Source: Crocinitomicaceae bacterium
GTDB lineage: Bacteria > Bacteroidota > Bacteroidia > Flavobacteriales_D > Crocinitomicaceae
NCBI GenBank assembly: GCA_014762645.1
Contig: JABURP010000093.1
Location: forward strand, 1-62,417
Direction: 5' to 3'
DNA: 62,417 bases
Positions 1 through 10,689 of the stretch are shown here, piece by piece (positions within the stretch are counted from its first letter, which is position 1; the number at the start of each line of letters is the position of its first letter). The position numbers and the translations under genes are program-made. Below the pieces are notes generated by a model. The model ran no database searches, was not told the origin of the DNA, and worked only from the letters and a program-made list of their open reading frames with translations.

Positions 1-117
1 TTTTTCCAAAATGGCAACAACATATAAACAAAACCAATGTACTTTAGTTCCATTAAAAGGAATAAAACCCATTAAACTTTATTTCAGAAATAATTAAACC
101 CGTAATAGGGTTACTTT

Positions 118-184
118 TCAAAAAAAAAGACCTCAAAATCAAATGATTAAGAGATCTTTTTTGTACCTGAGGCCGAGACTCAAC
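118..184 (-). pseudogene. tRNA-Leu 3' end remnant with its terminator
   Basis: Read on the minus strand, 184-164 is the last ~21 nt of a leucine tRNA: a T-loop missing one C, the 3' half of the T stem (TCGGC), the acceptor strand CTCAGGT and discriminator A. It is followed at once by a hairpin (arms 123-134 and 151-162) with a U-rich tail; the one mismatch on the plus strand is a G-U pair on the minus strand, so minus-strand transcription is favoured. The acceptor strand pairs perfectly (one G-U) with GCCTGAG at the 5' end of the broken tRNA at 10474-10536. Homology stops in the T-loop, as for attachment-site scars. Confidence 0.6.
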
Positions 185-321
185 TGTAAATGAAATGATC
201 TGAAAATTGATGAATGAAATATCATCAATTCAAGATCAGCTCTAACGTTGAGGTGAAATACATTGCAAAGGGATGAAAACTTGGCGGTGTCTTTGTCGGT
301 GTCACCGGATATTAGAAACAC

Positions 322-347
322 AAAACCCCCAGCATTAGCTGAGGGTT
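322..347 (-). terminator. Displaced tRNA-Leu terminator
   Basis: Hairpin with arms 326-333 and 338-345 and loop ATTA. The C-A mismatch on the plus strand becomes G-U on the minus strand, so it acts in minus-strand RNA. It lies just beyond the left attachment repeat, where the terminator of the original tRNA-Leu gene would be left after integration. The hairpin at 10329-10349 has the same design beside the intact tRNA. Confidence 0.55.
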
Positions 348-356
348 GTTGTTCGA

Positions 357-380
357 TTTGTACCTAGGGTGGGAATCGAA
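357..380. repeat. attL: left 24-bp direct repeat of the integrative element
   Basis: The sequence TTTG followed by TACCTAGGGTGGGAATCGAA is identical to 10350-10373, which is the 3' end of tRNA-Leu(CAA). Flanking bases differ on both sides. A short copy of a tRNA 3' end 10 kb from the tRNA, with an integrase gene in between, is the standard signature of tRNA-targeted integration. This copy is the displaced end of the original tRNA gene. Confidence 0.85.
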
Positions 381-486
381 AAAGTCAATAAAATTAAGTG
401 TTACAGGTTAGTATTCTGACAAAGTAGTAACAGCGATTCTATGTTAATAACTTCTCTTTTTAATTTGAAGGAATTAACAATGATCG

Positions 487-1311
487 TTATTCAAATTTGA
501 GCTTCAGTTGAGGTTCAATTTTAGGGTAAAAGACACCTATAATTACAAATGGATTTGGTGCTCTCATGTGATTTATAAATGTAGTTCCTAAGAAAAAATA
601 TAGATCTTTTTTAGTTAACTCATTAAAAAATTTCTGTTTCACAGACTCACAGGCTTCTTTCTCATCACCATACTTCCTCCATTCTTTCCAATACAATGCG
701 CCAACTTCCCAATCCTCTATCATGAGATGAGATTGTTTGCCAGAATCATCCTCAAATAAGTACTTGAATTTATATGGTAGTTTTTTCACAATTTTAGTTT
801 TTCTAGAAGACGCTTCTTCAAATAAATTTTGCTGATTAAATAGTGCCAATTTATTTTGAGGCCATTCTCTCTCAGCTTCTTCTTTATATGTGAAATCCAA
901 AATTACACTAGGTTTGAACACCGCTAGGGAGATTCTTTCATCACTCTTTGCTTCAGCTATAAGCTCATCTAGATTTGTGTATAGTCTTGCTTTATCAAGT
1001 ACAACTGCTTTTCTTTGAGCCCAATTTCCAGCAGAAGTAATTTTCCCTAGTTTTTTAATTGGTTCATCTACGTCTATATCTTTAGGCCTATAGCTTTCCT
1101 TTCTGAAATCTTTGGTATTCTTCACAAGATCTAGCTCTATCCAGTCATACTTACTATATTGCTGACCATAGGGAAGTCTTCTATATGGTACAGGGTATAT
1201 TCTGTACCAATTACCGTCTTCATCAAACCCTGCTGTACAAACTAATTCCTCATATCTAGTTGAGATATTAGGGTAGGTCTTAACAGTAATAAGGATTTTC
1301 TTTTTACTCAT
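487..1311 (-). CDS. Hypothetical protein partnered with DUF488 gene
   Basis: A 274-aa soluble protein. The ATG at 1311 shares its A with the TGA of the upstream DUF488 gene, so translation is probably coupled; a TTG one codon earlier is less likely. The N-terminus (VKTYP, then a stretch rich in W, Y and P ending in WIELDL near residue 60) looks beta-rich, and I recall such proteins beside DUF488 genes, possibly with OB-like folds, but that is memory rather than proof. No catalytic motif, signal peptide or membrane segment is visible. Its tight pairing suggests that it works with the DUF488 protein. Function unknown. Confidence 0.75.
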   Translation of the reverse strand: MSKKKILITVKTYPNISTRYEELVCTAGFDEDGNWYRIYPVPYRRLPYGQQYSKYDWIELDLVKNTKDFRKESYRPKDIDVDEPIKKLGKITSAGNWAQRKAVVLDKARLYTNLDELIAEAKSDERISLAVFKPSVILDFTYKEEAEREWPQNKLALFNQQNLFEEASSRKTKIVKKLPYKFKYLFEDDSGKQSHLMIEDWEVGALYWKEWRKYGDEKEACESVKQKFFNELTKKDLYFFLGTTFINHMRAPNPFVIIGVFYPKIEPQLKLKFE

Positions 1312-2204
1312 CAAATGTGCTTTACTGTAATAGTAGGATCAAGTTCTTGCACTTTTTTAGCAATCTCACCTCTATGGCACATACATTGGTCATGTTCAAA
1401 ACAAGTTATTGCTACCCTATTACCTTTAGACACAGCGGATATTAATCTTCTAACTTGTTGAAGATTTTTTTTCAAGGTAGTTTTTTCATATTCTTTGAAC
1501 AATTTCTTATAGTCCTTAATAGAATTTAAGACTTGTCTTTTTTCAGAATCAATACCAAGGTCAGGAACATGAAAAAATACAATCCCAACTCCTTCACATG
1601 CATGTTTTAATTGATTCTTTGAAAAGCCATACTTCCTTGATAAAGAATTTTTTCTGACATCCCAAAGAACGTCAACACCATTAATAAGAAGCTTGTTAAT
1701 ATAAGATTCTAGCGTAAGACCTTCATATCCTATGGTTAATAAAGCTGGTTGATCATATTGCGATTTTTGATCATCAATTTTGCTCAATTCATCACTGTTC
1801 AACAATTCATTAGCTATAGTACTGTTGATTGCCCAAAAGGGGTAGTTCCTGTAAGTATACTTTATCAATTCTTTATTGCTATACTCATTGAATTGTGATG
1901 AAACTTTCCGGATTATCTCTATGTCCTTCTTGTTTAGCATATTCAAGTACGAAATATTATCAAGCTTGAGCCAAGTAGATTGGCCTGAATTTTCAGTTAC
2001 AGCAACTATTCCATACTTCCCAAGAGTTTTCATATCTTGATTAGCAGTGAATGAGTAGCATCCAAACTGATATGGGACAAAGTCATAAGCCTTCTTAACT
2101 TGTTGTCTTGTTACTAGTAATAGTAGTTTTTGGAGCCTAGTGCTATTTATTTTTCCACCACAAGCTTCTAATAATCCGAGTATCAATTTTCTCCTATAAT
2201 ACAT
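1311..2204 (-). CDS. DUF488 protein with N-terminal winged-helix-like region
   Basis: A 297-aa protein. The C-terminal half from about residue 155 is a DUF488 domain: TIGYEG, then DVRKNSLSRK, then the Cys-rich CFEHDQCMCHR signature near the C-terminus, which in the family may bind metal. The first ~100 residues (RLQKLLLL followed by FVPYQFGCYSF) resemble the winged-helix region of SocA/Panacea-like proteins, hinting at a DNA- or protein-binding role. A TAnnTTTG-type -7 box lies at 2209-2216, only 4 nt before the ATG, so the mRNA may be nearly leaderless. It is first in a two-gene operon. Biochemical function of DUF488 is not established. Confidence 0.85.
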   Translation of the reverse strand: MYYRRKLILGLLEACGGKINSTRLQKLLLLVTRQQVKKAYDFVPYQFGCYSFTANQDMKTLGKYGIVAVTENSGQSTWLKLDNISYLNMLNKKDIEIIRKVSSQFNEYSNKELIKYTYRNYPFWAINSTIANELLNSDELSKIDDQKSQYDQPALLTIGYEGLTLESYINKLLINGVDVLWDVRKNSLSRKYGFSKNQLKHACEGVGIVFFHVPDLGIDSEKRQVLNSIKDYKKLFKEYEKTTLKKNLQQVRRLISAVSKGNRVAITCFEHDQCMCHRGEIAKKVQELDPTITVKHI

Positions 2205-2208
2205 ATTA

Positions 2209-2216
2209 CAAAGTTA
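2209..2216 (-). promoter_or_regulatory. -7 promoter box for DUF488 operon
   Basis: TAACTTTG on the minus strand fits the Bacteroidota -7 consensus TAnnTTTG. It ends 4 nt upstream of the DUF488 ATG, implying a very short or absent leader. No convincing -33 TTTG is seen at the ideal distance. Confidence 0.45.
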
Positions 2217-2395
2217 TGAATAGAAGATTGTAAAATATACAAGTTTATTAAAACGTCTCCACAGGTTAATGTGTTTACTAACAAACGCTGATACAAACTT
2301 GATTTATTTTGGTTTGTGAAATTCCGAAAAAACCGTATTTCTACGCATAAATCTAGCTTCTATATTATATATATTTGAGAAAACCATATTTACTT

Positions 2396-3373
2396 ATGGC
2401 TAACGAAGTTAAGCTTGAAGCATTTCATATAAAAATTAGAGATAGAAGCGGAAAGAAGTCAAAGCAAAAGGATAGGTTGTACTATTATATGGGAGATGTT
2501 GAAGGTCGAGACTTTTATGATATTTTCCTTCGTTTTTTAGATGTGCACAAAGTAAAGTTTGACAGGGATAAAAATCTGAAAAGGTCATTTATTGTTGTTA
2601 ATGATGGCACAAAAGAAGACATTAATCCTACAAGTAGATATATAAGTGGAATTATTGAAAGTGGGGAATTTGGTTTTAGCTCAAATATCAAAGATGAAAT
2701 TGGTACAACAGTTTATGCAAAAGATAGAGTTGAGTCTGTTGATATACCCTTTTACTTTCTAATTCATATCCCCAAAGGGAAGGATAGGGCAATATTAATT
2801 ACTCAGAGAACAGGGGTACATGGATTGTCGTCTATTTTGAAACACAAATTAATGTCCTTCGTTAGGGATAATTATTATGAATATATCCTTGAAATAAAGT
2901 CTCGATTGTCAAAGGCTATGGCAGAAAAAATATTAGATGAAGGATTAGCGAAAAAATTGGTATTGACAAGATATGTTGCTCCTCATGATATTGCGGATCA
3001 ATTAGGAGATGGAATAGGGGATGATACTTTAGCTCAAGAGGGTATTAAAATTGAACTAAGTATTTCTTCAAAAGGAAGGACCTTTCTAAACCTCAAAAGT
3101 AAGCTAAAGCAATTCATCAAAAATAGAGATCTGAAAATATTAGACATTGAAGATTTTGGGTTTAAGGAAGGAGGATATACAGCAAGTGTACAGATGATTC
3201 ATGGTGGTAGACCAAGAATTATTGACCTATCTGACACTATGAATATTAAACCTTATTATGACATTGAAAAAGATGGACTTGAGAAAGATGTGGTCGATAA
3301 TCATCCTATTTTTTCAAGTATTAATGGAATTGCGCTTGAAATACTTGAAGAGATGGAGAATGAAACTATTTAA
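2396..3373 (+). CDS. Unrecognised cytosolic protein, first gene of two-gene module
   Basis: A 325-aa protein counted from the ATG at 2396 (MANEVKLEAF); an upstream TTG at 2375 would add seven residues. No signal peptide or membrane segment. A hydrophobic core strand pattern FYFLIHIPKG followed by AILITQRTG near the middle resembles a motif I associate with uncharacterised island proteins, but I cannot name the family. The stop codon is followed after 2 nt by the ATG of a 4-TM protein, so the two are almost certainly one operon. The pairing of a soluble protein with a small multi-pass membrane protein inside an integrative element is the layout of sensor/effector defence systems. That role is inference. 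Confidence 0.8.
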   Translation: MANEVKLEAFHIKIRDRSGKKSKQKDRLYYYMGDVEGRDFYDIFLRFLDVHKVKFDRDKNLKRSFIVVNDGTKEDINPTSRYISGIIESGEFGFSSNIKDEIGTTVYAKDRVESVDIPFYFLIHIPKGKDRAILITQRTGVHGLSSILKHKLMSFVRDNYYEYILEIKSRLSKAMAEKILDEGLAKKLVLTRYVAPHDIADQLGDGIGDDTLAQEGIKIELSISSKGRTFLNLKSKLKQFIKNRDLKILDIEDFGFKEGGYTASVQMIHGGRPRIIDLSDTMNIKPYYDIEKDGLEKDVVDNHPIFSSINGIALEILEEMENETI

Positions 3374-3375
3374 GA

Positions 3376-3846
3376 ATGTCAAAAATTAACATAAATAATA
3401 TTATAGTTGAACACTTTAAATCTCAGTTTACAACTGGATTTGATTATTTTATTTTTATGTTAATTCCAGCCCTATTAACCACTTTACTTGTTTGGTTTGA
3501 GATCTCTTTGAAATTCCAGGCCGGAATAATTATTTCAAGCCTTTCTATTTTTATAGGTCTTTTTATAAATGTACTCGTTCTGCTATTTGACATTATAAGG
3601 AGATATACAGATAGATCAATAAAAATTGAAGTCCTAAAGCAAGTAATGGCTAATATTTCATTTACTGTTCTTCTTTCTGGAATAGCAATAATCTGTTTGT
3701 TCTTGACTAAGATTCACCATGAACTTAGCAGTAAGATATTTAATGGAATAACAATCTATTTACTAGCTTGGATCATGCTTAATATTTTGATGATTCTAAA
3801 ACGTATATATGTACTATTTCTTGATGAAATAAATCAAGGCAAATAG
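3376..3846 (+). CDS. Small four-TM membrane protein, second gene of module
   Basis: A 156-aa protein with four predicted membrane segments at about residues 23-42, 48-72, 92-110 and 122-145, and a basic residue cluster after segment two (DIIRRYTDR). It has no enzymatic motif. It starts 2 nt after the preceding gene and ends 3 nt before a densely structured intergenic region. It could be an inner-membrane effector that disrupts the membrane when triggered by its soluble partner, or simply an uncharacterised transporter-like protein. No family recognised. Confidence 0.75.
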   Translation: MSKININNIIVEHFKSQFTTGFDYFIFMLIPALLTTLLVWFEISLKFQAGIIISSLSIFIGLFINVLVLLFDIIRRYTDRSIKIEVLKQVMANISFTVLLSGIAIICLFLTKIHHELSSKIFNGITIYLLAWIMLNILMILKRIYVLFLDEINQGK

Positions 3847-3849
3847 TCC

Positions 3850-4137
3850 GTGAGCCTTTGCGAGTTAGGCTAGGGTCTGGGAGTGGGAATCAGCTTTGCT
3901 GATGAAGCTACCAGATATGTATGCAATACACTTTAGCCCTAGCCGCAAGCAGGCGAGCACAAATATTAAGCAGCGGTGATTTTAAATGGCTTCGAAGAAG
4001 TTATTTAAAAGCAGAGTAGCTGCGGATGATGAAGAAAAGTATGCTCAAATTTCATGACATTATGGCGATAGCCACCTGTAAGGCATCAAATGTGCTCGCA
4101 GAGCTCTTTTGATGTAATGGCGGGATAATTTGAAATG
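3850..4137. ncRNA. Densely structured intergenic region, candidate ncRNA
   Basis: This gene-free stretch folds into three domains. Domain 1 (3850-3960) is one long nested stem: GTG/CAC, GCCT/AGGC, TTGC/GCAA, GGCTAGGG 3868-3875 with CCCTAGCC 3937-3944, TCTGG/CCAGA and an apical ATCAGC-TTT-GCTGAT hairpin. Domain 2 (3970-4023) nests GCAGC/GCTGC, TTTTAAAT/ATTTAAAA and CTTC-GAA-GAAG. Domain 3 (4045-4133) has TCAAATT/AATTTGA and CATTA/TAATG enclosing TGGC-GATA-GCCA and a CATCAAA/TTTGATG stem capped by GCTC-GCA-GAGC. The arms are symmetric, so the strand is not certain. It starts 3 nt after the membrane-protein gene. No reverse transcriptase is present, so it is not a typical retron. Confidence 0.55.
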
Positions 4138-4201
4138 CTTTGATGAAGAATGCCTTATTTCCTGTTTCTATCAACTGCAATAATTCATTTGATTTAAATT
4201 G

Positions 4202-4573
4202 TCAAGAGTTAATTTTCCAATATTTAAAATAGATAGTTTTATCTCCATGGATTGTTACCATCTTATGTTCCTCACCGTCATTGTCATAAAAAGAAAATCC
4301 TTTACCCAAATTCCTCCAATAAGTGAATTGAACTGCTCTTGGTATATTTAGATTCTTAAATAATTCCGATTTAAAGATTTCTTCTTCAAAGTTCCTTGCT
4401 GTGTCTTCAGTTAAAATAGGGCCAATTTTTGCTTTTGCTTTTTTATTAGATCCATTGAAGAGTAGTTTCGTTTCCAAACTCTCTTCCGTCTCATTACCAC
4501 ATCCACAACTCAACTTGGAAATTGTAACATTCCTTCTAGACAAATCCTCACCATAATTATACAATTCAAACAT
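4202..4573 (-). CDS. Hypothetical protein following RES-domain gene
   Basis: A 123-aa soluble protein of unknown family. It contains a CGCG-type cysteine pair near residue 23 (SCGCGNE) and a C-terminal aromatic-rich strand region ending in FKYWK. Its ATG directly abuts the stop of the RES gene (TAAATG), so it is co-transcribed and probably translationally coupled. A small partner encoded next to a RES NAD+-phosphorylase toxin could be its antitoxin, but canonical RES antitoxins are Xre-type DNA-binding proteins encoded upstream and this one has no helix-turn-helix that I can see. Confidence 0.7.
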   Translation of the reverse strand: MFELYNYGEDLSRRNVTISKLSCGCGNETEESLETKLLFNGSNKKAKAKIGPILTEDTARNFEEEIFKSELFKNLNIPRAVQFTYWRNLGKGFSFYDNDGEEHKMVTIHGDKTIYFKYWKINS

Positions 4574-5416
4574 TTAATTATTGGACATCCTTACTTTTGA
4601 TATTGTGGAACTTATTTTTTCTTTAGTATTTTCTTTTAATGTCATGTGAAATAAATTATCAATAGACATAAAATTATCTACAAAACTTGGGAGTATAGCA
4701 AAATTCATCCCTTTAAACTCAGCTTCAATACTTGGAAATATCAGAATTGGAAAATGAACTGTATTGGTATTATCCATTGTATTGTACATTATATTATGTG
4801 CAACATAAGCAGTGAAAGGATATAGTTTAGTGTTTGTCGAACAGAAAAGTTTAGATATTTCTTTAATTAAAAACATGAATCGTTTTGCTTTAAGCTTTCC
4901 TTCTTCTTTAATAATGCGTTCTTCAAATCCAGAAGTCTTAATTAAGTTATTCCAAAAACCATCTTTAAATTCTAACCCCAAATACATTGGAGATACCATG
5001 ATTTTCTTAGACCGAATCTTTGTAGTATCAAAACTCCAACGTGATATATAAAACTCTTCGTCAATGTCATGAAATTTTAATTCTGCAATTGCAGTTTCAG
5101 GAGATAAGGAGCAATAAAAAACAGAATGCCCTGTCCAATTTGCTCTTTGAGGTGATGTACACATAATTACAGGATCAGGAGGGTAATAATATGGCTTTAT
5201 TGAATATTCATCTTCGACACTTTTTTTAGGCCTTGCTCTAAACACATGAAGCTCATTTAAAACATCAACATCAAGAAATAAAGTAGGAATTGGAAACAGA
5301 CCAAAGTTTTGATAATAAAAGGTTTTAATATCCGCTAAACTCATTCTTGTGAAATCCGTATTGTGGATATTCTTAATAGCTTCTTTGGTCTGTTTTATGG
5401 TGGGAAAATCTTGCAT
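4574..5416 (-). CDS. RES-domain protein (putative NAD+ phosphorylase)
   Basis: A 280-aa protein. RES hallmarks are in order: FRAR at residues 59-62, the strand GHSVFYCSLSPETAIAE at 96-112 with its conserved Ser and Glu, and IFPS at 226-229 followed by GMNFAI. In RES toxins an Arg, a Glu and a Ser in these positions form the NAD+ pocket, and the enzyme depletes NAD+ by phosphorolysis. The N-terminal ~50 residues are extra compared with short ResT toxins. It lies third in a leftward operon behind two small genes. It may be a toxin, an addiction module of the element or an anti-phage effector. Domain call firm, role inferred. Confidence 0.85.
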   Translation of the reverse strand: MQDFPTIKQTKEAIKNIHNTDFTRMSLADIKTFYYQNFGLFPIPTLFLDVDVLNELHVFRARPKKSVEDEYSIKPYYYPPDPVIMCTSPQRANWTGHSVFYCSLSPETAIAELKFHDIDEEFYISRWSFDTTKIRSKKIMVSPMYLGLEFKDGFWNNLIKTSGFEERIIKEEGKLKAKRFMFLIKEISKLFCSTNTKLYPFTAYVAHNIMYNTMDNTNTVHFPILIFPSIEAEFKGMNFAILPSFVDNFMSIDNLFHMTLKENTKEKISSTISKVRMSNN

Positions 5417-5431
5417 TCAACATACATTTAA

Positions 5432-5647
5432 CTACAAGATAATAAAGTTGAAATAGTAATAAGGTCTTCCTTTTATGTAGTAGACAAGTACTTCCTTAGG
5501 GTCTACTTGTATGCTCTGCACAAGATATGCCTTGTAAAGTTCTAACTTTGGAACTTCTTTTATTAGCTGAACCCTGAAAGGAACCTTAAGCCGAAGCAAG
5601 ATTCCTTCCTGGGACACAACTAAAAGTGATTCTTGATCAAATGTCAT
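5432..5647 (-). CDS. Small hypothetical protein
   Basis: A 71-aa protein without recognised family, signal peptide or membrane helix; it is rich in Val, Leu and aromatics and looks all-beta. It sits 21 nt after the 107-aa gene and 15 nt before the RES gene on the same strand, so it is likely part of one operon. Coding character is supported by context and spacing only. Confidence 0.55.
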   Translation of the reverse strand: MTFDQESLLVVSQEGILLRLKVPFRVQLIKEVPKLELYKAYLVQSIQVDPKEVLVYYIKGRPYYYFNFIIL

Positions 5648-5668
5648 TTTAGTTATTTAATTGCGACA

Positions 5669-5992
5669 TTAACCTAGAACCGTCTCAACAACATTATCAA
5701 CATCTTCCTGATATTCATAAGTGAAGTCAAGCTCAATTGACTCACCAGAGTCAGTTTCAAACTCATAAGGATCACAAGGGATTTTTTTAATGCAACCCGG
5801 CATTTTACTTCCTATAAGAGCCTTAGCTGTTGATTCATCAACTGTTGAAGCAATAGAAGCTTTGCGAACTGTTGCATAAAATTTACCTGATAATTTGGAT
5901 TTTACCATCTCTAGCCCGCCAGCTAGGATTAAGGCAATGAATTTATTGCCGTCGCTGTTTTCACGTACAGCGTAATCTTGCACGATAATCAT
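5669..5992 (-). CDS. Small hypothetical protein, possibly ssDNA-binding
   Basis: A 107-aa protein, first in the leftward operon and divergent from the polymerase-like gene. It starts MIIVQDYAVR and alternates short hydrophobic strands with turns, with an acidic C-terminal third (ELDFTYEYQEDVD). This size, fold impression and position beside a replication-type gene would suit a small OB-fold ssDNA-binding protein of a mobile element, but I see no signature that proves it. No membrane segment or signal peptide. Confidence 0.6.
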   Translation of the reverse strand: MIIVQDYAVRENSDGNKFIALILAGGLEMVKSKLSGKFYATVRKASIASTVDESTAKALIGSKMPGCIKKIPCDPYEFETDSGESIELDFTYEYQEDVDNVVETVLG

Positions 5993-6015
5993 AATACTTA
6001 TTTTAGTTATGTATA

Positions 6016-6052
6016 ATAATGTGGTACATTATGAAGGGTAATAAATAACCCT
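6016..6052. promoter_or_regulatory. Paired inverted repeats between divergent operons
   Basis: Two inverted repeats lie back to back: ATAATGT-GGT-ACATTAT (6016-6032, perfect 7-bp arms) and AGGGT-N8-ACCCT (6035-6052). They sit in the 158-bp gap between the leftward 107-aa gene and the rightward polymerase-like gene. They could be a repressor operator controlling both sides or part of a replication origin of the element. No canonical TAnnTTTG promoter is seen here. Confidence 0.4.
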
Positions 6053-6150
6053 GAAAAGCACCGGGGGGACATTCCCAAAGACTTGAAGGGGTACACCCAA
6101 TTTGCTAGTTAGAAAAGACTCTGAGATAAAAATTTTTTTTATTATAACAC

Positions 6151-7641
6151 ATGTTTCTGATACAACCAATAAATCTTGATCTCAACTCTTTAAGAGAAAG
6201 TATTCCCTTAGATAGTTCTACATCAAATGATAGAATCTTATTAATAATAAATCAGATTTATCAAACATATGTCTTTGATGAAGGCATGAGAAGAAATGAT
6301 GATTATGTTTATGTATATGCTCATGTGTTAGAATCTTGTTATTATAAGTATCGGAAAATTCTAGATTGGCTTAAAGAAAATGAGGTAATAGAAATCTATG
6401 AGGGTTTTTCAAAGGGTGTATATCCCAAATGCTATAGGTTACATTCTACCTATAGGCATCAAAAATCTAAATTGGTACACGTAACAGACCCAAGAGTAAT
6501 CAAATACCTACGAAATAATCAATTAGACCTGTCAGAGACCACAATAAACAGGTATCCAGCTCTATGGAAATTTTTTAGAGAAGGTAAGTTGAAATTTGAC
6601 CGCACTAATATTGAATCAATTTTACAGGACCAATTGGATCAAGATATTCTAAATATTGGGGAAGACAATGCATATAGAAGATATTCAGAGAAGGTCTTTA
6701 GTATTGGTTGGATTGAATCAAATAGGTACTGGTTTAAACAGGACAAATTTGGTAAGAGACTTCATACTAATATTACAAATCTTAAATCAGAACTAAGAAG
6801 TAATCTCTTATATGATGATTCTTCAAAACTTGTAGAGGTAGATATAAGAAACTCTCAGCCATATTTTTCAATACCTGTTTTAGAAAAGGTTTTTGAAGAT
6901 AATCAGGAAGAAATAAGAGAATACATGATGGAAGAATATGGGATAGGGATTGATATTATGAAGAATGATCAAGATAATTCTATTAATGTTTCATATACTC
7001 TCCAGGAAACACAATCAAACCCTTTGTTTATGGGGTATTCAGAATACAAAAACTTAATATTATCAGGGGATTTATATGATGTATTTAAATTTAAAGGCCA
7101 AGAGCAATACGGAGAAAATTACTTGCAAGATTACGTAAATCGACTTCTCATAGTTCGCAACTATCAGGTAATTAATAATGGCGGTAAAAAAATTTCCTAC
7201 GGAGGTAAAACACCAAGAAAACAGCCAATAAGTAATTCGTCATGGGTAGCTCCTGACTTACGTGGATACCAGGACAGAACCATAATTAAAACAATGATAT
7301 TTGGGGTGTTCTATGGGAAACATGAAATATCTTCTTCTCATGGAGACTACAAGAGTCTTTTTAAGTCCCTTTTCCCTGATGTGTGGTATGCTTTAGGCAT
7401 CATTAAAGGTGGAGAAGGTAAAAGTGGAAGAGAATTTGCAAAGAAATTGCAAAGAATGGAATCTGCGTCTATACTGGATGTAATATGTAAACGATTAACA
7501 AAAGCCAAAAGAAACCTTCCTCTATATACAATTCATGACTGTGTAATGACAACAGAAGAAAATGTAGATTATGTAACTGAGGTTCTTCAAGAGGAATTAA
7601 CTAGAATAACAGGATATCCACCTGAAATCAATATTCATTGA
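6151..7641 (+). CDS. Divergent protein with family-A polymerase palm motifs
   Basis: A 496-aa protein. Motif B at residues 376-389 (RTIIKTMIFGVFYG) has the Arg, Lys, aromatic and Tyr at exactly the +0, +4, +8 and +12 spacing of the Pol I O-helix (E. coli R754, K758, F762, Y766). Motif C at 459-464 is YTIHDC, matching the HDE of Pol I with Cys for Glu. A candidate motif A is VEVDIRNSQP at 228-237 with Asp231. The A-B distance (~145 residues) is long, so an insertion is present. No exonuclease motifs. The N-terminal ~100 residues look like a winged-helix initiator-type region (ILDWLKENEVIEIY). Likely role: replication of the element. Polymerase activity is inference. Confidence 0.7.
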   Translation: MFLIQPINLDLNSLRESIPLDSSTSNDRILLIINQIYQTYVFDEGMRRNDDYVYVYAHVLESCYYKYRKILDWLKENEVIEIYEGFSKGVYPKCYRLHSTYRHQKSKLVHVTDPRVIKYLRNNQLDLSETTINRYPALWKFFREGKLKFDRTNIESILQDQLDQDILNIGEDNAYRRYSEKVFSIGWIESNRYWFKQDKFGKRLHTNITNLKSELRSNLLYDDSSKLVEVDIRNSQPYFSIPVLEKVFEDNQEEIREYMMEEYGIGIDIMKNDQDNSINVSYTLQETQSNPLFMGYSEYKNLILSGDLYDVFKFKGQEQYGENYLQDYVNRLLIVRNYQVINNGGKKISYGGKTPRKQPISNSSWVAPDLRGYQDRTIIKTMIFGVFYGKHEISSSHGDYKSLFKSLFPDVWYALGIIKGGEGKSGREFAKKLQRMESASILDVICKRLTKAKRNLPLYTIHDCVMTTEENVDYVTEVLQEELTRITGYPPEINIH

Positions 7642-7682
7642 AAGTATCAATCAAATCCTTCTGAAAAGAAATTTTCCGTTGT

Positions 7683-7778
7683 ATGACAACAGAAAAGACT
7701 GTAAAGTACGTTGCAGAAAAACTACTAACTGAAGTAAGAAAAAATTACGGGATATCAGCCTCAGTTCTCATGGAATAA
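7683..7778 (+). pseudogene. C-terminal remnant of a second polymerase-like gene
   Basis: Thirty-one codons plus a stop beginning MTTEKTVKYVAEKL. They match the end of the upstream protein (MTTEENVDYVTEVL, just after its HDC motif) at M, T, T, E, V, Y, V, E and L. There is no start region, so this is the 3' scrap of a related gene left by recombination or a decayed tandem duplication. It lies 41 nt after the intact gene. Confidence 0.6.
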
Positions 7779-7812
7779 TTCTATAAAATTTCTTTCGTTA
7801 CTTTTTTTAAAA

Positions 7813-7851
7813 CGTATCATTTATTCAATGATACGGAATGTCGTATCTTTG
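7813..7851 (+). promoter_or_regulatory. Operator-embedded promoter
   Basis: A perfect 9-bp inverted repeat CGTATCATT-TATTC-AATGATACG (7813-7835) is followed by a third half-site CGTATC (7842-7847) that overlaps the -7 box TATCTTTG (7844-7851, fits TAnnTTTG). The design is that of a promoter repressed by a small dimeric DNA-binding protein such as an Xre/HigA-type regulator. No such regulator is encoded in the element. Transcription would start near 7858 and run into the structured region 7888-8001. Confidence 0.5.
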
Positions 7852-7887
7852 ATTTAAAATATTGAGTTAGCGTAAGCTATTTATCTT

Positions 7888-8001
7888 GCCTTTGAAAATC
7901 GCCAGTTTATAAAGTGTACAAGAAAATAGACTTCACGCTCACGCTACAGGCGTGGGCTGTTGTTTATCTGTACACAGGGTGTCTGGCGATACCTCAAAGG
8001 C
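7888..8001. ncRNA. Nested long hairpin, candidate ncRNA or folded DNA site
   Basis: Four helices nest inside each other over 114 nt: GCCTTTGA 7888-7895 with TCAAAGGC 7994-8001; TCGCCAG 7899-7905 with CTGGCGA 7983-7989; GTGTACA 7914-7920 with TGTACAC 7969-7975; CACGC 7934-7938 with GCGTG 7950-7954. Asymmetric linkers separate them. It lies just downstream of an operator/promoter and upstream of a small membrane protein gene. Length and nesting are similar to domain 1 of the 3850-4137 region. It may be a regulatory RNA, a leader, or a single-stranded recombination site. Confidence 0.5.
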
Positions 8002-8077
8002 GGAGGGCTTCAGTTCCACGCTTCTTTCTTACTTATTAATAATCTGTTATTCGGAGCTGATAACATAAGTGCTTATT

Positions 8078-8266
8078 ATGTTGTATAGCTTTTTAAATTA
8101 TGAATTAATGCTTGTTGGGTTAGTAATTACAACGGGAATTGTCGAAACCTGTATTACTAAAGCAGAGGAACTAAGCCGGAGCAAAGTGAAATGGGGGTTA
8201 TTTGCCCTTCTCTTTCCCTTAATTGCAATCATCTGGATTAATCTATTAAAGTCAAAATCTACCTAA
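8078..8266 (+). CDS. Small membrane protein
   Basis: A 62-aa protein from ATG 8078; a GTG at 8069 would add three residues. Two hydrophobic segments are visible, at about residues 7-21 and 38-56, with a charged loop (KAEELSRSKVKWG) between. Its TAA is followed at once by the next gene's ATG. No family recognised. It lies downstream of the structured region and may be the gene served by the 7844-7851 promoter. Confidence 0.5.
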   Translation: MLYSFLNYELMLVGLVITTGIVETCITKAEELSRSKVKWGLFALLFPLIAIIWINLLKSKST

Positions 8267-8702
8267 TGAACATGAAACTTCTGTTGGCTTCATTATTGCT
8301 TTGGGCTCCTATTATTTATGCGCAAATATCAGAAGATATTTATAACGAGAATGATTCAATTATTAGCTCAGAGGCGTACACAGCTACAACGGTTATTTTA
8401 GAATTAGACCTAGAAGACTCAATTTTATTTTGGAATGTTGAGAATGAGGCTCAGGAGACTTTTATAGTAATGAATATAATGTGATTTCTATTGATAATTA
8501 CTACGAACATAATAGTCCAGGGCTTGACAGCACTTACTTTTGTAGAATTGATGCTATTAGTAGAGACACCAATGATAAAGTTGTGTTCATAGCCAATTTC
8601 GATTCTAACAGCTTTAGATATATTCCCATTGTAAAGCATCAAGCCACGGAGTCCTACTATGTATTATATGGTACTGGAATAATTCTCAATCTACCAAAAT
8701 AA
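8266..8702 (+). pseudogene. Secreted protein gene broken by a frameshift
   Basis: The first frame (8266-8484) encodes a start and signal peptide (MKLLLASLLLWAPIIYAQ) and continues to NEAQE; it then runs out quickly to a stop. A second frame, open from 8448 to 8702, continues as FYSNEYNVISIDNYYEHN and on for about 80 residues. Joined near 8450-8462, around a short T run, they give one ~145-aa exported protein. Either a real frameshift mutation or a sequencing error. No family recognised. Confidence 0.55.
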
Positions 8703-8736
8703 AACTAGCCTCCATTGGTTCTACTGGTATTTTGGG

Positions 8737-9006
8737 TTAAAATCTGTTTTTATTAAACTCTAAGCCTACCTGATGAGGTAGATATATTTTATCCTTCAAT
8801 TTTTCCATTAATTCAAGAATCTCGTCACGAGTATCTTTAGAATATCTGTATAGATTTAAGAGAACATTCGTATCAAAACAAATCAATGCATTTTCCCAAA
8901 TTGCTTTTAATTCTTCGCTAGATTTTTTTTGAAATTCTGAATATGTCGCTTTCATGGTACCATTTGTTGGAAGACTGAAAGTAACAATCTTATCTACGGT
9001 ATCCAA
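8737..9006 (-). pseudogene. Truncated PIN-like domain protein (N-terminal fragment)
   Basis: Eighty-nine codons matching the start of PIN-like (PIN_8/DUF4935) proteins: a segment LKAIWENALICFDTNVLLNLYRYS carries the first catalytic Asp of the nuclease fold, followed by LKDKIYLPHQVGLEFNKNR. Full-length members are several hundred residues long, and the later acidic catalytic residues are absent here. The reading frame ends right after the EF.KNR motif. It is a leftover of a toxin or defence-type nuclease gene, so the element has turned over cargo at this place. Confidence 0.7.
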
Positions 9007-9073
9007 TTATATAATAGGATGTTTTGTGAATTTCTGACTTCTTGAAATGAGTACTGTGCATATGAATTCCTTT

Positions 9074-10183
9074 TCAGAGGCATGGTAATTTATTTAGCGC
9101 ATTTACCTTTAACTCATTTACATGGTTTAGATATTTTAGAGTATGTGCAGTGGTTGTATGTCCTAAACAATCAGCAACTGTTTTCAAATTTGTTTGGGAT
9201 TCAGATAAGAGCATAACTGCAAAAGTGTGCCGAGCACAGTAGAAAGTTATATGCTTTTTAATCTTTGCTCTGGCTATCCAGCGCTTAATAGTTTTATTTA
9301 CTGAGTTAGTACTTGGAAGTTTGAAAATTAAACCGTCTTTTTCTTTATAGTTACTTAAAATATTGAGGGCAGATTTTGGTAGTGTATTTTGAATAAGAGT
9401 ATTGGTTTTTTGACGTCTAATAGAAATACAATCTCCAATGATATATGTCCAATCTAGTTGCCGTAGTTCAGCTAGCCCTAATCCTGTGAAACAGGCAAAG
9501 AAGAATGCGTCACTTACATTAGAATTTCCACATGGGGTTTGTTGTAGGATTCGCAATTCTTCAATTGTTAGAATTTGTTTGGTAAGCTCGTGATTTTTTA
9601 ATCGCTTTACCTTTTCATTGGGTCGAAGCATTTCCACTGGATTTACTTGAAGAAGTTCTTTTTGTTTCAATGAAATAAGAACAGAATTAAATTTTGAGAA
9701 GTAATTGTACGGTGTTTCTCCGGTTAGGTGGGAATTTTTCAAATAGTTAGCAAAACCTCTGCAAAAATCAGGTGAAATATCCTTTATTCTATGTTTCCTG
9801 ATGTCAAATCCATTGTGACACATGTAATCTACTAAAATTGATTTGGTGGCCTTAAACATCCTTAAATCACCCTTCTGGTAATTTTCTACAAAGTCATTGA
9901 AATATTCAATGAAATTTATGGATTCCTTTCTTTCCTTTAAAAAAGAAAATTCACGATACAGTAGCTCACTTTCTCTTTGAATTCTTATTTGATTTGCTAT
10001 TGCTTTCTGCTTCGAATAATCACCGTATTCTGTTGAGCCTGGAATGTACTTTATTGGTAATGTTTCTGTAAACCTTCCTTCTTCCTTTGAGTAATAATCA
10101 AGATAAAAGACTATAACTTGTTTTCCTTTATGATTTCCTTTGGTTCGTTTTTTCCCTTTTCTTTCTCTTAAAGCTACATTCAT
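9074..10183 (-). CDS. Tyrosine recombinase (integrase) of the element
   Basis: A 369-aa site-specific recombinase from the ATG at 10183; the reading frame extends further upstream but only through the tRNA gene. It has an N-terminal arm-binding region, a SAM-like core-binding domain (~90-195) and a C-terminal catalytic domain. Visible catalytic positions: Lys259 (RRQKT), Arg318 (CARHTF), His342 (LGH) and nucleophile Tyr351 (LKYLNH). The Box I arginine is replaced by Gly236 (FTGLGLAEL) and the first Box II residue is Tyr315 rather than His. Bacteroidota conjugative-transposon integrases such as IntDOT also lack the Box I Arg, so the enzyme may still work. It inserts the element into the adjacent tRNA-Leu. 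Confidence 0.9.
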   Translation of the reverse strand: MNVALRERKGKKRTKGNHKGKQVIVFYLDYYSKEEGRFTETLPIKYIPGSTEYGDYSKQKAIANQIRIQRESELLYREFSFLKERKESINFIEYFNDFVENYQKGDLRMFKATKSILVDYMCHNGFDIRKHRIKDISPDFCRGFANYLKNSHLTGETPYNYFSKFNSVLISLKQKELLQVNPVEMLRPNEKVKRLKNHELTKQILTIEELRILQQTPCGNSNVSDAFFFACFTGLGLAELRQLDWTYIIGDCISIRRQKTNTLIQNTLPKSALNILSNYKEKDGLIFKLPSTNSVNKTIKRWIARAKIKKHITFYCARHTFAVMLLSESQTNLKTVADCLGHTTTAHTLKYLNHVNELKVNALNKLPCL

Positions 10184-10328
10184 GGTCCTGATTTGTACTA
10201 ACAAAGTACTAACAAAACAATCAGATATTGAATAAAATCTTATCCACAGCCCAAGGGTTTTTAACAATTCAGAAAACTCTAAAAGATCTGCAAAACCGTA
10301 GGTTTTATAATGGATTGGAATAAAATAA

Positions 10329-10349
10329 CCCCCGACGAAGTGTCGAGGG
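10329..10349 (-). terminator. Terminator after tRNA-Leu, supplied by the element
   Basis: Hairpin with arms 10329-10336 and 10342-10349 and a 5-nt loop, located 4 nt beyond the tRNA 3' end. The C-A mismatch on the plus strand is a G-U pair in minus-strand RNA. It is inside the element, so the element brings its own terminator for the tRNA it rebuilds. Confidence 0.55.
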
Positions 10350-10373
10350 TTTGTACCTAGGGTGGGAATCGAA
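10350..10373. repeat. attR: right 24-bp direct repeat, tRNA-Leu 3' end
   Basis: Identical to 357-380. It covers the T-loop to the discriminator base of tRNA-Leu(CAA) plus 4 downstream bases. It marks the junction between element and tRNA gene. Confidence 0.85.
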
Positions 10374-10434
10374 CCCACACTCCAAAGGAACACGAGTTTG
10401 AGTCGTGCGCGTCTACCAGTTCCGCCACCTAGGC
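10354..10434 (-). tRNA. tRNA-Leu (anticodon CAA)
   Basis: An 81-nt leucine-type tRNA. Acceptor arms GCCTAGG and CCTAGGT pair throughout with one G-U, discriminator A. The anticodon stem CACGA/TCGTG closes the loop CTCAAAC, giving anticodon CAA (10400-10398) for UUG codons. A long variable arm and the T-loop TTCGATT follow. CCA is not encoded. Its 3' 20 nt are the integration target of the element. Confidence 0.92.
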
Positions 10435-10473: not shown

Positions 10474-10536
10474 CCTCGTTTGAGTCGTGCCTGCCTGTCT
10501 GCCGACAGGCGCGTCTAACAGTTCCGCCACTCAGGC
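10474..10536 (-). pseudogene. Broken tRNA-Leu 5' half with inserted palindrome
   Basis: On the minus strand from 10536: GCCTGAG acceptor, D-arm GCGGAACTGTTAGACGC, then an inserted 20-bp palindromic unit (10491-10510), then GCACGACTCAAAC, which ends in the anticodon loop. The rest of the tRNA is missing. The insert falls where the intact neighbour reads directly from the D arm into the anticodon stem. The acceptor strand complements the scar at 164-184 on the far side of the element. Confidence 0.7.
10491..10510. repeat. Small palindromic (REP-like) insertion
   Basis: The core GCCTGTC-TGCC-GACAGGC (10493-10510) is a perfect 7-bp hairpin. It is absent from the intact tRNA-Leu next door and is flanked by a GC dinucleotide on both sides, as expected for a small mobile palindrome. 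I see no second copy in the window. Confidence 0.55.
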
Positions 10537-10689
10537 ATCTGGTAATAGGACGGCAAATTTAGTAATTTTTTCATTCTATCTGAACTTATTTAAAGTAAAT
10601 CCAGAATCAAAACCAACGCATAAACACTTTACTTGTAATGCTTCTCAAACTTTATCTAAATCAATTATATTTGGAGTAAATCCAACGTT

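Follow-up and report, generated by a model that had tools for sequence, protein, structure and literature searches.

A predicted exonuclease-less family-A polymerase with a winged helix in an integrative element at a tRNA-Leu gene of a Crocinitomicaceae bacterium

The integrative element and its genes

The window, by which the whole analysed stretch of 62,417 nucleotides is meant (contig JABURP010000093.1 of a Crocinitomicaceae bacterium), carries close to its beginning an integrative element inserted at a tRNA-Leu gene (Table 1). One of its genes encodes a 496-aa protein, which the first-pass annotation, made from the sequence alone, had tentatively described as an element-encoded polymerase used by a small integrative element. 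The carriage described there is borne out by the perfect 24-bp direct repeats at the two borders, the second of which lies at the 3′ end of the tRNA-Leu, and by the tyrosine integrase gene enclosed between them. The start of the integrase was set at the ATG at 10183, because the longest open reading frame (to 10393) enters the tRNA. The G+C content per kb is 0.31–0.35 over positions 1–10000 versus 0.35–0.43 beyond them. The host's ordinary polA is located on a different contig. In the search for the empty site of the window element, the left flank gave just 12–24-nt matches in congeners.

Table 1. Features of the element and of the polymerase gene (positions in the window)
Positions	Strand	Feature	Basis
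357..10373		integrative element, ~10.0 kb, attL to attR	repeats, tRNA-Leu, integrase, low G+C
357..380		attL, 24-bp copy of the tRNA-Leu end	perfect direct repeat
487..2204	-	cargo: PADLOC candidate defence system PDC-M19, two genes (M19B, M19A)	
2375..5416	+ and -	cargo: 332-aa and 156-aa genes (+), function unassigned; 123-aa and RES-domain genes (-)	
5432..5647	-	71-aa conserved partner, 35% to 86-aa protein of the circular contig	
5669..5992	-	107-aa conserved partner, without family match, 42% to 114-aa protein of the circular contig	
6151..7641	+	winged-helix / minimal family-A-like polymerase, 496 aa, ATG start	
6151..6534	+	N-terminal winged-helix domain (residues 1-128), RepA-initiator-like	AlphaFold; Foldseek/VIA
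6535..6720	+	helical region, paired helices 151-169/171-189; presumably thumb-like, by position	AlphaFold model
6757..6858	+	GR motif (R203) to motif A (D231; Q236 at usual steric-gate position)	
7276..7317	+	motif B / O-helix R376-K380-F384-Y388-G389	
7450..7542	+	Q434/E437 helix and motif C H462-D463-C464	
7683..7778	+	remnant, 3′ end of second polymerase allele	repeat found in window; frame by eye
9074..10183	-	tyrosine integrase (Phage_int_SAM_5 + Phage_integrase), beside tRNA	ATG start inferred
10350..10373		attR, overlapping the tRNA-Leu 3′ end	perfect direct repeat
10353..10434	-	tRNA-Leu (CAA), insertion site	

Among the cargo genes, the 123-aa and RES-domain genes are a possible toxin–antitoxin pair. 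Homologs of the 107-aa partner occur in 17 of the 80 best genome loci (out of 139), and tblastn matches to the 71-aa partner in 2 of these 80. The degenerate allele end just downstream of the polymerase gene is likely the scar of a recombination between elements.

Several minor features accompany the element. Just outside attL, the stretch at 157–185 resembles a tRNA end and matches the tRNA-Leu surroundings of two congeners over 17–19 nt; it may be the remnant of an older insertion. On the other side, beside the intact tRNA-Leu, a degenerate copy of part of the gene lies at 10509–10545 (84% over 37 nt). A hairpin at 7870–8020 (DNA fold z −4.4) has counterparts of 71–80% similarity in four related genomes (G001, G002, G006 and G021); close to it, inspection by eye showed a small open reading frame of secreted- or lipoprotein-like character in the window and also in G001 and G002. 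The hairpin was considered as the origin of the polymerase and rejected, because the four genomes with the similar sequence gave no match to the polymerase; it is possibly a gene-cassette or other mobile site.

Sequence motifs of the 496-aa protein

The motifs named in the first-pass annotation are located where they had been described. Arginine, lysine, phenylalanine and tyrosine are spaced every four residues as R376, K380, F384 and Y388, and their counterparts in E. coli Pol I are R754, K758, F762 and Y766. The candidate motif C is YTIHDC at 459–464, with H462, D463 and C464, and the candidate motif A is VEVDIRNSQP at 228–237, with D231. An extra motif, absent from that annotation, is GKR203LHTNITNL, which aligns with the GRLSS..PNLQN of PolA. 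Compared with PF00476 proper, C464 replaces the glutamate of motif C, and Q236 replaces the glutamate at position D+5 of motif A.

Conservation was followed in two sets of relatives. The set of 28 members, the window protein included, was gathered with no use of motif patterns, through searches by protein, by profile and by tblastn, and comprises the open reading frames of at least 330 aa, identical ones taken once, from 44 matches. In this set R203, D231, Y309, K380, E437, H462 and D463 are invariant, while Q236 is kept in 27 and R376 in 25 members, a conservation beyond what chance resemblance would give. The residue after HD is mostly serine (21 Ser, 3 Glu, 2 Cys, 1 Gly, 1 Ala), and Cys464 is therefore a local variant. 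The larger set was reduced from 173 family open reading frames of the retrieved loci to 157 of at least 370 aa, then to 105 by clustering at 70%, of which 100 were joined with the window protein. Among these 101 sequences, Arg or Lys is present at position 376 in 99, K380 in all, Phe or Tyr at position 388 in all (Phe at this Y766 position in 90), Gly at position 389 in 41, and Ser after HD in 94. D231 and D463 are also found in 101/101, but the counts of D231 and of N234–P237 in this set are biased, since those residues stood in the search patterns.

With the 496-aa protein alone, Pfam, PHROGs and PDB sequence searches returned only chance-level matches, and Pfam gave no match to PF00476, so that the protein was not placed in that family. 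For the remaining 100 members, the 25 commonest of 54 Pfam families do not include PF00476. Two profiles used to search PDB sequences also stayed at chance level.

Predicted fold of the catalytic part and of the N-terminal domain

The AlphaFold model, built with the 101 sequences, reached a pLDDT of 86.7 and a pTM of 0.84, with the loops 277–288 and 342–373 poorly modelled. Foldseek placed family-A DNA polymerases at ranks 1–16, the best being 1kfd (Klenow) with E 1.6e-4 and probability 1.00; the query-normalised TM scores over the whole chain are low (0.22–0.37), and the mitochondrial RNA polymerase POLRMT appears at ranks 17, 34 and 47. All 50 matches listed by VIA are family-A DNA polymerases with Z of 12.7–14.2, led by pol theta (Z 14.2, rmsd 3.4 Å, 257 residues aligned), and these alignments start at model residue 87–135 and end at 496. 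The best viral models are A0A516L5C2 (409 aa, TMt 0.75) and A0A8D9FR19, annotated as 'Putative DNA polymerase I' (TMt 0.68). A model without palm and fingers had been named beforehand as evidence against the polymerase reading; both are present in the predicted structure, and its family-A fold agrees with the proposal. Judging from the fold match and the alignments, the motifs probably cluster in space. The proposed lack of an exonuclease domain is also upheld: in the predictions, residues 1–128 form a winged helix and everything after them a polymerase. The model leaves no room for a fused helicase beside these two parts.

Modelled alone, residues 1–128 gave a pLDDT of 92.5. The top Foldseek matches of this domain are RepA initiators (4pql, 4pt7, 5kbj), with a best E of 3.4e-3 at probability 0.99 and none at or below 0.001. 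Of these, 4pql is a RepA whose entry title reads 'DNA binding protein'. With VIA, 4pql aligns over 90 residues (Z 7.3, 2.9 Å), and the winged helices of CRP, ORC and Fur follow within 1 Z; no match of the domain has a Z of 8 or more, and the tool warns that such similarity may reflect a common arrangement only. The protein has no Pfam match to RepA_N. The first-pass annotation had spoken of an initiator-fused polymerase. The winged helix itself is supported, with plasmid initiators as its best matches; as an initiator it is a candidate, these matches being tied with CRP, Fur and ORC at Z below 8. Structures resembling the RepA_N initiator of the PLE satellite are reported to include 4PT7 and 4PTA (PMC7145576).

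Relationship to Pol A and to RNA polymerase

Profile–profile comparison (hhalign) was made against a PolA reference of 25 Bacteroidota PolA domains and T7 gp5 (26 in all). The family profile alone reaches P 0.028 (reversed 0.47, shuffled 0.23), with motif B, the Q-helix and motif C weakly in register. Against T7-like RNA polymerase, the same profile reaches P 0.013 in an alignment of 31 columns around motif C (reversed 0.21, shuffled 0.75). A much clearer match is obtained with divPolA2, at probability 96.6 and E 6e-10 (reversed 0.34, shuffled 0.29), and the C-terminal part of the family alone matches it at probability 96.9. In turn, divPolA2 alone relates to PolA at P 0.0008 and to RNA polymerase at P 0.0055. 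When the 28 members are combined with 7 divPolA2 sequences, the match to PolA rises to probability 94.3 and P 9.5e-8, against P 0.036 for RNA polymerase, with reversed controls of 0.44 and 0.46. In this combined alignment, GR203 stands opposite the GR of PolA, D231 and Q236 opposite the Asp and Glu of motif A, R376/K380/F384/Y388 opposite the O-helix residues, and H462–D463 opposite the HD of HDE. With the combined profile all motifs, the Q-helix included, are in register with PolA.

Single members of the 101-sequence set show weak similarities of both kinds: RNA_pol PF00940 in 1/101 (E 0.003), the RNA polymerase families phrog_414 and phrog_2051 in 1 and 2 of 101, and an NCBIfam DNA polymerase model in one (E 0.047). 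PHROG 4756, with no function assigned, matches 17/101 members at E up to 0.1 (best 2.7e-8). A link to divPolA1 was considered as well and dropped, as no profile match was found (P 0.61, reversed 0.24); this sample comprised two sequences only, one immuto protein and the neighbouring PolA of LR756511, which blastp does not join to each other.

Distribution and gene neighbourhoods of the family

Relatives of the 496-aa protein were found in 4 of 59 genomes besides its own, and a profile built from five sequences found matches in 23 (its own among them) of the 399 genomes searched from the order. By tblastn, one Hymenobacter plasmid and six huge-phage records of 595–735 kb, two of them of equal length, were added. 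The scan of viral contigs with the single 496-aa protein gave no match, likewise with divPolA2; pattern scans of viral sequences confirmed 13 and 127 loci (best 80 of the 127 kept), and that of prokaryote genomes 139 (best 80 kept). These best 80 of 139 are, by genus name, nearly all from Bacteroidota, apart from one Ignavibacteria MAG and one 'MAG: bacterium'. The family is widespread and unnamed, in mobile elements of Bacteroidota and in giant phages. At G071:C4:215323-233873, four family matches lie within ~18.6 kb (a near-complete gene, a fragment, and one in two adjoining pieces), which suggests tandem or decayed elements.

The ratio dN/dS is 0.04–0.22 in all pairs for which it is defined, 24 of 26, with two equal values coming from near-identical contigs. 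The pairs consist of relatives only, the window protein being without a close enough partner, and this result supports purifying selection in the relatives.

Neighbours were counted at 79 of the best 80 of 139 genome loci, as locus L198 has no family open reading frame. A gene for a tyrosine integrase is present within 500 bp at 36/79, within 3 kb at 55/79 and within 6 kb at 57/79. For the background, 97 Phage_int_SAM_5 matches were counted in ~132.5 Mb of 39 other genomes, from which ~0.5% would be expected per 7.5 kb; the two counts differ in detection model and genome set. Within 6 kb of the same 79 loci, a DUF3871 cluster occurs at 29, a Sak4-like AAA_24 ATPase cluster at 27 and an HTH_17 cluster at 17, in 12 cases directly upstream with a one-base overlap, each cluster being named from one representative. 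A type I restriction cluster, named by eye, is present at 13. The window element has no DUF3871 gene, and no Sak4-like gene among its scanned open reading frames.

The contig G284:C29 closes to a circle of 32,175 bp, as its ends overlap exactly over 149 nt. It carries the polymerase, an integrase, AAA_24, DUF3871 and an AEP Prim-Pol together with the 114-aa and 86-aa homologs of window proteins, and also HTH, type I restriction and RadC-like genes (names by eye). The contig fits an excised circle or a plasmid, which by itself is no proof of replication. A single 361-bp stretch, used to look for its attachment site in the host, did not locate one. Terminal overlaps were absent in G134:C40, G344:C33, G345:C15 and four short loci. 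The Prim-Pol of the circle (L274:8006-9496) has a homolog in 1 of the 80 other loci (best 80 of 139).

Another DNA polymerase besides the family enzyme is encoded in all 11 phage records tested, PolB in 10 and PolA with PolC in LR756511, and in these records the family enzyme is therefore not the sole polymerase. In the huge phage LR756511, a 428-aa PF00476 polymerase (L038:7143-8426) directly follows the family gene, i.e., two PolA-like genes stand in tandem. On the Hymenobacter plasmid, a replication initiation protein and ParA are annotated in addition to the relative; that the relative is the sole Rep was rejected, since the plasmid has this initiator of its own.

Comparison with known polymerases and self-synthesising elements

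The closest described relative is divPolA2 (Virol J 2024, PMC11348598), whose catalytic domain is homologous. It is a protein of ~430 aa likewise without exonuclease, composed of an N-terminal domain and a palm with catalytic residues. The two differ in detail: in seven divPolA2 sequences, position D+5 of motif A is E in 4, H in 2 and W in 1, where Q stands here, and motif C reads FDE (2), HDS (2), YDE, HDD or HDA (1 each), where it is mostly HDS here. The N-terminal domains are not detectably homologous (P 0.24, reversed 0.59; the family alignment held 90 of 93 sequences plus the window protein), and its describers report finding no similarity for the N-domain of divPolA2 (PMC11348598). The same paper describes divPolA2 in phages only, namely Caudoviricetes (barbaviruses, Vibrio and Aeromonas phages), whereas members of the present family are found in integrative elements, huge phages and on one plasmid as well, with an N-domain that models as a winged helix. 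Carriage by a phage with a regular polymerase, as for divPolA2, was observed for the relatives in the 11 phage records tested and does not apply to the element in the window. Among the papers listed, two use the names divPolA1 and divPolA2, namely the Virol J article and the preprint of it.

With Pol I, T7 gp5, pol theta and apPol, the protein shares the predicted fold of residues ~121–496 and the GR, A, B and C motifs; unlike them, it is without exonuclease and has Q for E at D+5 and C or S for the E of motif C. The RepA_N initiators (4pql, 4pt7, 5kbj, 4pta) offer the best but tied fold match of the N-domain, which here is fused to a polymerase. Exonuclease-less PolA fused to an SF3 helicase is described in sputnik-like virophages and polinton-like viruses (PMC11071308), and the name TV-Pol is given in PMC11348598. 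Such enzymes serve as family-A replication proteins of small elements or viruses, a use that is proposed for the present family too; likened by description, they are helicase-fused and belong to eukaryotic viruses, whereas the present ones have a winged helix and belong to bacterial integrase elements. Pipolins are integrative bacterial elements that encode a polymerase (piPolB) and XerC-like recombinases and occasionally have episomal forms, but their polymerase is of family B with reported primer-independent synthesis (PMC7385651), in contrast to the predicted family-A fold here. The suggestion of the first-pass annotation that the replication strategy was possibly undescribed calls for qualification: divPolA2 and helicase-fused exonuclease-less PolA were already known. 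A bacterial integrative element with a family-A polymerase was not found in the literature, in a search that mostly lay outside subscription journals and brought up pipolins, casposons and polintons.

Possible function

The model and the motifs make it very probable that the protein is a catalytic polymerase of the Pol A superfamily. On balance, it is somewhat favoured as a dedicated replication protein of the element. The best explanation, for which the chances appear slightly better than even, is that an exonuclease-less Pol A polymerase with a winged helix is a core gene of Bacteroidota tyrosine-integrase elements and copies the excised element. This explanation is supported by the fold (as a model), the motifs, the purifying selection in relatives, the element borders and the integrase linkage, while we infer the catalysis, the target of the winged helix, the substrate and the use in element replication. 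In the proposed course, the element would be excised, the winged helix would take the enzyme to the origin of the element, the enzyme would make DNA there (or a first primer stretch), and the excised circle would be copied before reintegration. The nearness of the N-domain to RepA initiators, the HTH_17 and AAA_24/Sak4-like clusters, the circular contig with polymerase, integrase and Prim-Pol, and the separate polA of the host also speak in its favour. Several observations count against such a replicase: the other polymerases of the phage records, the plasmid's own initiator, the absence of direct repeats of at least 9 nt (possible iterons) at 5960–6200 upstream of the polymerase, the Z below 8 of the N-domain, the rarity of the Prim-Pol homolog, the missing Sak4-like and DUF3871 genes of the window element, the lack of a Pfam match above chance, and the family-only profile, closer to RNA polymerase (P 0.013) than to PolA (P 0.028).

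The phage records in which another polymerase is present would suit a repair or recombination polymerase. In elements, and in phages with a separate replicative polymerase, it would fill gaps and extend strands that the Sak4-like ATPase has annealed. A repair role is proposed for divPolA2 in PMC11348598, and the AAA_24/Sak4-like cluster at 27 of the 79 neighbourhoods agrees with it; yet the window element retains the polymerase without a Sak4-like gene, and a dedicated winged helix would suggest a site-specific over a general role. Repair is considered a less probable alternative of some weight. The serine after HD in 94/101 members, as in T7 RNA polymerase, the glutamine for glutamate at the usual steric gate and the phenylalanine at the Y766 position in 90/101 would suit a derivative of Pol A that makes RNA, as an RNA polymerase or in the manner of a primase; for divPolA2 such an origin and activity are suggested in PMC11348598. 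The weak PF00940, phrog_414 and phrog_2051 matches and the 101-sequence profile lean in the same direction. This is opposed by the combined profile and by divPolA2 alone, both closer to PolA, by the weak NCBIfam DNA polymerase match of one member, and by the VIA matches listed, all of them to DNA polymerases, though POLRMT is present in the Foldseek ranks; an RNA-making enzyme is considered quite unlikely. A defence or counter-defence cargo with polymerisation as the effector is highly improbable: the PADLOC candidate system and the RES-domain gene in the element and the type I restriction cluster (by eye) in 13/79 loci would agree with it, but the polymerase itself has no PADLOC match, is linked to integrase and HTH_17 genes, and is widespread in phages.

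The preferred reading, replication of the excised element, has a stronger form. Polintons, casposons and pipolins are described as self-synthesising elements with family-B polymerases (PMC7385651 and PMC11071308), and the present element might be a family-A counterpart of pipolins, self-replicating, in which one protein finds the origin and starts synthesis with a relaxed-gate polymerase. We regard this as unlikely, and hold equally doubtful what it would entail, namely a primer-independent initiator-polymerase with no separate primase, initiator or replicative polymerase supplied by the element. Apart from this stronger form, a family-A enzyme with a built-in winged helix and a linkage to integrases across many genera of Bacteroidota would give bacteria a further solution to self-synthesis. 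The winged helix suggests a targeting domain for a branch near divPolA2, and in an exonuclease-less polymerase of ~500 residues the choice of nucleotide, with glutamine at the gate, is directly testable.
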